Shown: positions 28,948 through 32,102 of the stretch, one piece after another
How the letters are laid out: the number at the start of each line of letters is the position of its first letter
Position numbering within the stretch: the first letter of the stretch is position 1
DNA from: Acetobacteraceae bacterium
Lineage (GTDB): Bacteria; Pseudomonadota; Alphaproteobacteria; Acetobacterales; Acetobacteraceae
Assembly (NCBI GenBank): GCA_027487385.1
Contig: JAIYDS010000110.1
Location: 1 to 55,708 of the forward strand
Direction of reading: 5' to 3'
DNA: 55,708 nucleotides
Program-made: the position numbers and the translations under genes
Notes under the pieces: generated by a model
The model's input: only the letters and a program-made list of their open reading frames with translations
The model's database searches: none
What the model was told of the DNA's origin: nothing

Positions 28948-29250
28948 ATGCACCTGACCCCTCGCGAAAAAGACAAGCTGCTCATCGCCATGGCTGCCCA
29001 GGTGGCCCGCCGAAGGCTGGAGCGCGGCGTGAAGCTGAACCACCCGGAAGCCATCGCGCTGATCACGGATTTCGTCGTGGAGGGCGCGCGCGATGGCCGC
29101 AGCGTGGCGGATCTCATGGCGGCCGGCGGCGAGGTCATCACCCGCTCCCAGGTGATGGAGGGTGTGGCCGAGATGATCCACGACATTCAGGTGGAAGCCA
29201 CCTTCCCCGACGGCACCAAGCTCGTCACCGTCCATAACCCGATACGTTGA
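28948..29250 (+). CDS. ureA: Urease gamma subunit
   Basis: The 100-residue protein is the complete UreA subunit: [34 protein letters not shown], then [21 protein letters not shown] and the terminal VTVHNPI. It forms the urease trimer with UreB and UreC. Its stop overlaps by one base (TGATG) the ATG of an uncharacterised 41-codon ORF. Confidence 0.96.
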
Positions 29251-29375
29251 TGTTGGGCCGATTCACCTTCCGCGCCGAAGAGGCGCTCCAGGATCGGACC
29301 AGGATGCCGGGCCGATTCACCCTCCGCGCCGAAGAGGCGCTCCAGGATCGGACCAGAAGGAGGCTGCTGCCGTGA
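29250..29375 (+). CDS. Small duplicated ORF fitted between ureA and ureB
   Basis: Forty-one codons begin on the last base of ureA (TGATG) and end in a TGA that overlaps the ureB GTG start (GTGA). The product is two near-identical 18-residue units, [16 protein letters not shown] and [16 protein letters not shown], joined by MP and ending RRRLLP. The DNA repeat period is 54 bases, so the duplication keeps the frame. The peptide is very basic at its end and amphipathic. I recognise no family. Exact fit to both neighbours suggests at least translational coupling; whether a stable peptide is made is unknown. Confidence 0.45.
29255..29356 (+). repeat. 54-base tandem direct repeat, two units
   Basis: Two 48-base blocks (29255-29302 and 29309-29356) differ at one base (CCTTCC against CCCTCC) and are separated by GATGCC. 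Near identity implies a recent duplication or maintained homogeneity. The second unit runs into AAGGAGG, the ureB ribosome-binding site. Confidence 0.92.
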
Positions 29376-29677
29376 TCCCAGGTGAAATCATCTGCCCCGA
29401 AGGCGAGATCGAGCTGAATGCGGGCCAGGCGGTGACCGTGCTGGATGTCGCCAATACCGGCGACCGTCCGATCCAGGTCGGCAGCCATTATCATTTCTTC
29501 GAGACCAATCCGGCGCTGGAATTCGACCGCGCCGCGGCGCGTGGGCAAAGGCTCGACATCGCCGCCGGCACGGCGGTGCGCTTCGAGCCGGGGCAATCGC
29601 GCCAGGTGCGCCTCGTCCCGCTGGGCGGGGCGCGGGTGGTGCATGGGTTCCGCGGCGATGTGGAAGGGAAGCTGTGA
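29372..29677 (+). CDS. ureB: Urease beta subunit
   Basis: The 101-residue complete UreB has [62 protein letters not shown] and [11 protein letters not shown]. The GTG start has AAGGAGG nine bases upstream, inside the end of the small ORF. Its stop overlaps the start of the 239-codon gene that separates it from ureC. Confidence 0.95.
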
Positions 29678-30392
29678 TGCAGGGTGTGATAAAGAATCTG
29701 GGCCTGTCCCATCGCCCGGATATCGGCCCGGTGCCGGGCGGGCTTTGGAAGCTCCTCGGCCTGCGTCCCGCCAGCGATGCGCGCGCCGAACCCAAGGGGC
29801 TCCGCACCGCGCCGGGCCTTGGCCGCGCGCGACCGGGCGAGATGCGGCGCAGCCTGCTGACCACGCTCGGGCTGCGGCCACATCCGGCGGATCGCGGCAA
29901 GCCGCTCGGGCTGATCTCGGGCTTCGGCCCGCGCCCGGTCGGCATGGGGCTGCGCACCCCGCGCGCGCTGCTGGTGACGCCGGGGCTCCACCGCTCCCCG
30001 CTTGAAAACGCCGCGCCGCATGGCTGGCTGGCCGCCTTCGGCCTGCATCCGCGCGGCGTGACACCTGGCCGCATGCGGGCGGCGCTGGGGCTGGGGCCGG
30101 CGGTGCGCTCGCCCGGGCTTTCCATCATCGCGGGGCCGCGACCCCGCGCGCCCATGCCCCCCTTGCCGCGAGGCGTCCTCGCCCGGCTCGGGATGATGCC
30201 GGCCTCGGCCCAGGTGAGCGCGCGGCGTGAGCCGGTGCTGGCTGGCGGGCTGAGCAAGCCCCGGCCGCGGCAGGCCTCGCCGGGTGAATTCTTCCTCAAG
30301 CTGCGCGAGCGCATGCCCGAACTCGACACGCGCCAGCCCCGCCAATGGCTGGAAGCGGCGCGCGAGCACCTCGCCGCGCTGAGGCGTGGCTG

Positions 30393-30393
<1 letters not shown>
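29674..30393 (+). CDS. Basic LGLRP-motif protein of unknown function between ureB and ureC
   Basis: The 239-residue product starts at a GTG overlapping the ureB stop (GTGA) or the adjacent ATG, and its TGA overlaps the ureC ATG. It is not recognised. Residues 1-200 are rich in Gly, Pro, Arg and Leu, with irregular motifs: LGLSHRP (9), LLGLRP (27), TLGLRP (64), [11 protein letters not shown] (78), MGLRTP (91), FGLHPRG (122), ALGLGP (137), LGMMP (172). Residues 202-239 look like an amphipathic helix domain ([20 protein letters not shown]). There is no signal peptide or membrane span, and the net charge is strongly positive. Perfect operon fit and good third-position GC argue for a real gene, perhaps a disordered urease partner. 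Confidence 0.7.

Positions 30394-32102
<1,709 letters not shown>

Follow-up and report, generated by a model that had tools for sequence, protein, structure and literature searches.

A gene between ureB and ureC in Roseococcus that has probably grown from a translation-coupling mini-gene

What is the reading frame that lies, fitted to the base, between ureB and ureC in the urease operon of this bacterium, and how could it have come to be there? The window, i.e. the whole stretch of 55,708 nucleotides that was analysed, belongs to a draft genome (G000; 313 contigs, 88.75% complete, 6.7% estimated contamination), the genus of which we take as Roseococcus (Roseomonadaceae, order Acetobacterales), with Roseococcus sp. 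SDR (G009) as a named member. By Pfam, the neighbourhood of the frame, termed X in the following, comprises ureD, ureA, ureB, ureC, ureE, ureF and ureG. All features given here lie on the forward strand: ureB, encoding the urease beta subunit (29372-29677; PF00699, E 2.1e-45), X (29677-30393) and ureC, encoding the catalytic alpha subunit (30393-32102; PF00449 and PF01979). A single open frame fills the gap and overlaps both the ureB stop and the ureC start, as the earlier note had claimed. Both overlaps are -1 and of the form TGATG, the first at 29675-29679, where the ureB stop TGA (29675-29677) meets the X start ATG (29677-29679), and the second at 30391-30395, where the X stop TGA (30391-30393) meets the ureC start ATG (30393-30395); the ATGA-type overlap that had been claimed for ureC is thus to be corrected. 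The 239-codon frame described in the note stands as a frame. Its GTG start at 29674 is a possible alternative, but ATG 29677 is the most likely start, giving a protein of 238 residues, since an ATG on the ureB stop is common to all six genus genomes with an insert at this junction (as is the TGATG overlap with ureC, 6/6), and the GTG is absent at this position from two of them, G019 (TTTAATG) and G009 (CTCTGATG).

Unassigned extra open reading frames occur within rhizobial urease operons, and the question arises whether X belongs to anything described. Searches of X against Pfam and NCBIfam gave 0 matches up to E 10 and did not indicate a known urease accessory protein; 0 matches were found among PDB sequences up to E 1 and none in PHROGs. 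The orthologues in G009 and G005 had no Pfam match up to E 0.1, and that of G009 matched one PHROG at E 0.088. Membership in a known family is ruled out by these Pfam, NCBIfam, PDB-sequence and PHROG searches, and the impression that the protein matched nothing recognised was borne out. Judged by its sequence, X is an undescribed gene exactly between ureB and ureC. Strong relatives besides the window genome were found, among 60 genomes, in G009 (E 8.2e-70) and G005 (E 6.0e-55). Whether homologues always sit between the two urease genes, as had been asked, can be affirmed for all strong relatives found; three weak matches (G016, G020 and G026, E 0.0009-0.006) lie elsewhere. In a named genome collection one X locus was found, that of the G009 record, and a search of 395 genomes of the order at E 1e-6 returned G000 and G009 only among the matches listed, G005 being taken as outside that draw as it was not among them. 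X comprises 154 codons in G005, 238 in the window and 259 in G009, so that the X of G005 is 84 residues shorter than that of the window.

The protein is indeed basic and rich in Gly, Pro, Arg and Leu, as had been noticed from its translation, with a computed pI of 12 and a summed share of these four residues of 56%. Its AlphaFold model has a mean pLDDT of 39.5 and a pTM of 0.15, and the only fold is a weak, probable C-terminal helix pair (residues 202-237, 30280-30387, pLDDT 52-64), the segment of which aligns in all three orthologues; the amphipathic C-terminal helix proposed earlier survives in this reduced form. The low-confidence model is perhaps compatible with the suggested disorder, which is here indistinguishable from a failed prediction, since the input alignment of four rows held three distinct sequences, too few for the purpose.

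The LGLRP-like motifs of X were previously described as irregularly spaced by 15-35 residues. We find instead a regular period of 19 residues: lag 19 is the top self-similarity lag of the protein in all three orthologues and was reached by 0 of 2000 shuffles of each (lags 6-40), the second lag being 38 in G000 and in the first 125 residues of G009, and 32 in G005. At the DNA level, the self-similarity of X peaks at 57 bp (lags 30-99). Lag-19 autocorrelation delimits a 19-codon (57-bp) tandem repeat of seven units over residues 1-131 (29677-30069), followed by less regular units. From residue 1 onwards, the unit reads roughly K/R-G-L-L-x-x-L/F/P-G-L-R/H-P, with the main-series G at positions 9, 28, 47, 65, 84, 103, 122 and 138 and extra ones at 78, 140 and 147.

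Inserts at the same junction in related genomes come in several sizes. Within the genus set of 21 genomes, 17 carry ureB, and in 11 of these the ureB stop and the ureC start are separated by -4 to +5 bases, with ureA, ureB and ureC side by side and no X; the urease operon can therefore do without X. The remaining six have an insert, of 55 bases in G006, 163 in G019 (three 54-bp units) and 175 in G008 (three 60-bp units), and, as X, of 463 in G005, 715 in the window and 778 in G009. A draw of 299 genomes of the family contained 193 with ureB (seven of the matching genomes belong to the genus), and outside the genus 87 loci, corresponding to 85 distinct places, were examined, mostly from the top of the ureB similarity ranking, i.e. 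with more similar ureases. Of these junctions, 81 of 85 span -4 to +7 bases without an insert. The four inserts are a single unit in G265 (MRGLLIAFGLRPQTAGRG), three 57-bp units in G296, a divergent 19-codon mini-gene with overlaps of 4 at both ends in G322, and 61 bases of other sequence in G096, where the ATG lies at -8 and the stop at +3. G265, G296 and G322 represent one other genus, which has ureB in five of nine genomes, and the remaining two of these five are without an insert. Taken together, an insert is present at 10 of 102 ureB-ureC junctions and none at 92. What recurs is a short mini-gene of 18-20 codons per unit (MRGLLIAFGLRPQSAGR-), in one or three copies, and the sizes at this one site form a ladder of 18 (G006, G265), 19 (G322), 54-58 (G019, G008, G296), 154, 238 and 259 codons. 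Mini-genes of this kind were not found among the literature matches listed, which covered titles and the beginnings of abstracts, most subscription journals lying outside the scope.

The step from these mini-genes to X rests on a common origin of their repeats. A profile built only from X repeats (20 units from the three proteins) scored the mini-gene peptides of G006 at 30.0 bits, G265 at 23.7, G008 at 22.3, G019 at 21.9 and G322 at 12.6, each above all 2000 shuffles of the peptide, with a small margin for G322 (best shuffle 12.3 bits). The G296 mini-gene scored 8.1 bits, reached by 8 of 2000 shuffles, and three control mini-genes scored 2.1, -1.3 and -2.3 bits, reached by 187, 1547 and 1529 of 2000. 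With the reverse profile, made from the mini-genes, the best match in each X fell around residues 58-74; it exceeded every shuffle in G005 and G009 and was below one in G000 (1702-1741 of the 2000 shuffles were scored). In local DNA alignments to the G008 array, X of G009 reached a score of 66 and X of G000 one of 51, whereas the best of 500 codon shuffles of each scored 37; against the remaining arrays, three in number, the scores of these two were reached by 0-1 of 500 shuffles. X of G005 is weaker in DNA, with 43 against a maximum of 38 for one of the four arrays and, for the other three, 5-24 of 500 shuffles reaching its score. Two units, residues 57-94 (29845-29958), belong to the part of X whose DNA most resembles the mini-gene arrays, and a DNA search matched the same place in G009. 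By profile and alignment scores, the X repeats and the mini-genes are homologous.

All ten inserts share a property that may bear on the translation of ureC. Termination-reinitiation coupling at ATGA and TGATG overlaps is known (PMC10666635; PMC6728339), and the part of the former report drawn on here gives a coupling window of -8 to +6 and finds the final 15 nt of the upstream gene sufficient; at a distance of 38 nt between the genes, two E. coli pairs lost 80-90% of reinitiation and a third lost all of it (PMC10666635). Because reinitiation drops steeply with distance, a non-coding insert of 55 bases is expected to uncouple ureC from ureB. Both junctions of X, at -1, lie within the -8 to +6 nt range of coupled pairs, and so do those of all ten inserts: each keeps an open reading frame whose start lies at -8 to -1 relative to the ureB stop and whose end lies at -4 to +3 relative to the ureC start. 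Shuffling whole inserts kept this chain in 0.1-15% of trials for nine inserts and in 89% for G322. When five bases were fixed at each end, the chain occurred in 5-13% of shuffles with the three long X, in 45-48% with the three-unit inserts, in 81-89% with those of one unit (G006, G265 and G322) and in 16% with G096; the ten inserts entering these comparisons are not independent by descent.

We propose, at a probability of about 0.68, that X is a young clade-restricted gene that has grown by tandem amplification of a coupling-preserving mini-gene of 18-20 codons, with a relay of translation as its likely first role. X would have originated inside the operon junction, from a mini-gene reaching from the ureB stop codon to the ureC start codon. 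A ribosome ending ureB would reinitiate on the mini-gene, read it through and, after its stop, reinitiate once more on ureC, and a mini-gene overlapping at both ends would replace one long gap with two short hops. Growth would be tolerated only as whole codons without stops, from one unit to three and then to six to eight units with a new C-terminal tail, and the relay may have been the first property to be selected while few units became many. A repeat history of one, three and six to eight units argues for growth from a coupling mini-gene rather than for a recruited accessory protein. It should be noted that a Shine-Dalgarno-like GAGG (30381-30384; anti-SD duplex -5.6 kcal/mol) lies inside X upstream of the ureC start, and that this stretch amounts to -5.5 to -6.2 kcal/mol in all nine insert genomes computed (G096 was left out) and to -5.4 to -10.0 kcal/mol in the 11 insert-free genomes of the genus, the ureC start used for G016 and G012 deviating by a few bases. 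Since this modest stretch is kept, coupling may not be essential, and independent initiation on ureC is possible.

The direction of change can be read in more than one way. Growth from one unit to many appears as the simpler reading of the ladder, and shrinkage from a long X in G006 or G019 would fit as well. In the tree of urease genes, the window genome, G005, G006, G009, G015 and G019 form one group (SH-aLRT 100), in which the insert-free G015 is sister to G009 (98), and G008 lies in a neighbouring group with the insert-free G001 and G007; several gains, losses or transfers are therefore needed. The rpoB tree left the insert-bearing group unresolved.

Growth through translated units raises the possibility that X and the mini-genes are translated spacers only, drifting repeats kept open so that ureC is reached, with no role for the peptide. 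The large in-frame length differences of X (154, 238 and 259 codons) and its absence from many relatives speak for this reading, which predicts that the amino acids themselves drift. Selection on the protein was estimated by pairwise Nei-Gojobori dN/dS with bootstrap for the three orthologues, the pairs of which are not independent. As had been recommended, close genomes were thus compared, and X gave values of 0.203 for G000-G005 (154 codons, bootstrap 0.135-0.321), 0.475 for G000-G009 (238 codons, 0.358-0.646) and 0.459 for G005-G009 (154 codons, 0.309-0.714), alongside 0.10-0.13 for ureB and 0.04-0.06 for ureC. Differences fall mainly on the third codon position, with counts over the three positions of 17/18/61 (G000-G005), 54/49/98 (G000-G009) and 38/35/65 (G005-G009). 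In the wrong-frame controls, the two other sense frames gave 1.46-2.92, the antisense frame sharing the wobble positions of X mirrored X as expected (0.25-0.60), and the remaining two antisense frames gave 1.34-2.57. With dN/dS below 1 in frame and substitutions mainly at position 3, X behaves as a protein-coding gene under selection, and by these estimates it is under protein-level selection.

This selection is unevenly distributed. Between G000 and G009, residues 1-40 (0.73) and 161-200 (1.14) are loose, as the spacer reading would have it, and residues 201-238 are intermediate (0.57). Against it stand residues 41-160, constrained at 0.19-0.30, and the 16 consecutive residues 74-89, which are identical across the three orthologues; keeping a frame open would not by itself hold amino acids in place. 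The earlier note had held that close relatives with an intact urease operon and no frame at this site would make X a non-functional spacer. Such relatives exist (11/17), but the conclusion is countered by the dN/dS of 0.20-0.48 together with the wrong-frame controls, and we regard a pure spacer as unlikely. The constraint on X implies that the protein as such has a role; to go by its composition and constraint, X would most likely act as a weakly binding, basic and disordered protein, in addition to the proposed relay.

The unit could also be conserved as DNA or RNA, i.e. as a REP-like palindrome or a hairpin in the ureB-ureC message, in which the reading frame is incidental. This is suggested by the similarity of the units, which show a DNA identity of 94-98% among G008, G019, G265 and G296, except for G265-G296 with 90%, where ureB is at 72-81%; the G006 unit is 84-88% identical to the others. 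Across the two genera, unit DNA is thus 84-96% alike and ureB 72-77%, which requires transfer, local spread or constraint at the DNA level, and which growth of X from a mini-gene leaves unexplained. Furthermore, the units share their ends GCGGCCTGC..GCAGGACGC with another array of G008, and related palindromic arrays occur elsewhere in the genus. However, a strong RNA hairpin in the units was not supported, as they fold no better than shuffles (z -0.1 to -1.4, eight sequences), the DNA of X has diverged while its protein pattern stays, and the frame is kept in 10 of 10 inserts. Nor is the ureB-ureC unit dispersed: a search allowing up to three mismatches located it in 3 of 21 genomes of the genus and 4 of 397 of the family, five genomes in all, with every copy directly after ureB, and a dispersed mobile repeat is ruled out for these genomes by its confinement to one locus. 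We consider an incidental reading frame improbable.

That X is instead a dedicated urease accessory or assembly protein, binding UreA-B-C or nickel-loading factors as a disordered, multivalent partner, is quite unlikely. It does adjoin ureB and ureC in every strong relative found, has a dN/dS below 1 and is basic and repeat-rich, with a low-confidence model that would agree with disorder. Urease does not generally require it, however, as it is absent from 11 of the 17 ureB-bearing genomes of the genus including G015, the sister of G009; it was matched among the 395 genomes of the order only in the window genome and G009 among the matches listed, and it can be 84 residues shorter. None of the results obtained points to binding of urease subunits or nickel factors, or to the tether for the trimer that had also been suggested. 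X is probably more than a spacer without being an evident accessory protein, and its first merit would, on this evidence, have been to let translation through.

Similar structures are not confined to the ureB-ureC junction. In the window, a second mini-gene lies between ureA and ureB (29250-29375, 41 residues), consisting of two 54-bp (18-codon) tandem units with a TGATG on the ureA stop and a GTGA on the ureB GTG; its tandem period of 54 has an identity of 94%, and G009 carries a one-unit version. The ureA-ureB gap of the other 15 genus genomes measures 8-13 bases in 11, is an overlap of 4 in three and holds a 615-base insert in G020. This last insert (G020:C355) contains other reading frames, by eye one with Cys and one coiled-coil and membrane-like. 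The ureA-ureB gap of G210 holds 84 bases with a palindromic-looking insert (GAGCGTCC..GGACGCTC), including, by eye, a frame that ends in ATGA on the ureB start, and a Shine-Dalgarno-like AGGAGG precedes ureB.

At E up to 1, a wider DNA search matched 21 of 21 genus genomes, for the most part through short, weak alignments, and four tandem places were among these matches; the TGATG-joined left end was found at up to one mismatch in 9 of 21 genus genomes and exactly only in two G008 arrays and one G019 array. We then sampled 1.2 Mb from G008, G009 and G006, in stretches chosen non-randomly for arrays already seen, and found 18 tandem rows of period 36-80, which by eye divide into 11 palindromic ones of one general type and 7 others. 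Of the 11, seven occupy co-directional junctions, two (periods 54 and 56) are flanked by convergent genes and one (62) by divergent genes, and one (60) forms an in-frame part of a nitrate-reductase-like gene. With genes named by eye from their translations, each of the seven arrays at co-directional junctions is translatable throughout; four of them had been seen before sampling (two of G008, glutamine amidotransferase and YicC), and the ureB-ureC array of G008 is one of the set. A dapA-smpB mini-gene of two 51-bp units (G006:C1:3786993-3787114) has a TGATG at one end and an ATGA at the other, and an ABC permease junction (G008:C12:404472-404692) carries four 50-bp mini-ORFs chained by TGATG. 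After an aminotransferase gene, YicC, glutamine amidotransferase and a rhodanese-like gene, the downstream gene has an in-frame N-terminal extension, for which no ordinary start codon was seen after the rhodanese-like gene.

Several arrays were also noted individually. A five-unit palindromic array is fused in frame to the N-terminus of guanylate kinase (G006:C1:3720372-3720624) and a two-unit one to that of an ABC permease (G000:C243:6735-6815), and an RluB-like protein also has an N-terminal extension. At G006:C1:3764964-3765085, a tandem palindrome of a different type has a period of 39-40.

Tentatively, and rated somewhat short of even, we suggest that in Roseococcus and the related genus REP-like tandem elements settle in the stop-start overlaps of operons, carrying their own relay frame, with X as one product. 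If so, the relay frame would make their insertion translationally silent, operon junctions would be a nursery for new genes, and living relatives would preserve X in its one-unit, three-unit and mature states. The proposed growth of X from a mini-gene would in itself provide a worked example of gene birth, with the intermediate sizes extant at one locus amid a well-studied enzyme operon. It suggests as a rule that an insert between coupled genes is acceptable only if it is itself a reading frame with overlaps at both ends, and it advises caution in annotation, since a reading frame between enzyme subunits is not necessarily a subunit or chaperone.

Several known systems resemble parts of this picture, and they are compared here on those parts of the cited reports that we draw on. 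Like PARCEL, X consists of tandem protein repeats from DNA with dyad symmetry and has a patchy distribution; unlike the 25-residue amphipathic repeats of PARCEL, many of them in membrane-targeted proteins, X has a period of 19 and another sequence (PMC2996958). The Rickettsia palindromic elements are likewise short repeats able to stay in frame and add coding sequence. They measure about 150 bp, form numerous families with many copies and, in the first set, lay within genes in nearly half of the cases, whereas the units here measure 50-62 bp, form head-to-tail arrays, often at junctions, and in the case of the ureB-ureC unit occupy one locus (PMC10969869).

CGTC-tagged REPs are common in Alphaproteobacteria and, in the portion of the report drawn on, are given as missing from Acetobacteraceae (PMC3733652); Roseococcus is now placed in Roseomonadaceae in the order Acetobacterales. 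They too are short palindromes beside stop codons, some of them within genes (PMC3733652), and their unpaired CGTC end motif may have a counterpart in the GCGTCC with which most units here begin on the other strand, as judged by eye. In detail, the reverse strand shows, by eye, GCGTCC in the units of G008, G019 and G265 and in one of the three G296 units; the remaining two G296 units and that of G006 show GCGCCC. The REPs have stems of 8-9 bp with loops of 4-5 nt and are mostly head-to-head dimers, in contrast to the head-to-tail arrays found here (PMC3733652). Predicted folds of three units consist of interrupted stems round an inner 4-bp hairpin with a 3-nt loop and so differ from the REP stem and loop; multi-copy dispersal, a further mark of REPs, is lacking in the ureB-ureC unit and present in other arrays of the wider type.

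The proposed relay also has a parallel in coupled gene pairs, as both ends of X are at -1, inside the range of -8 to +6. Such pairs are established operon partners (PMC10666635), whereas the relay proposed here would be a new mini-gene placed within an existing overlap.
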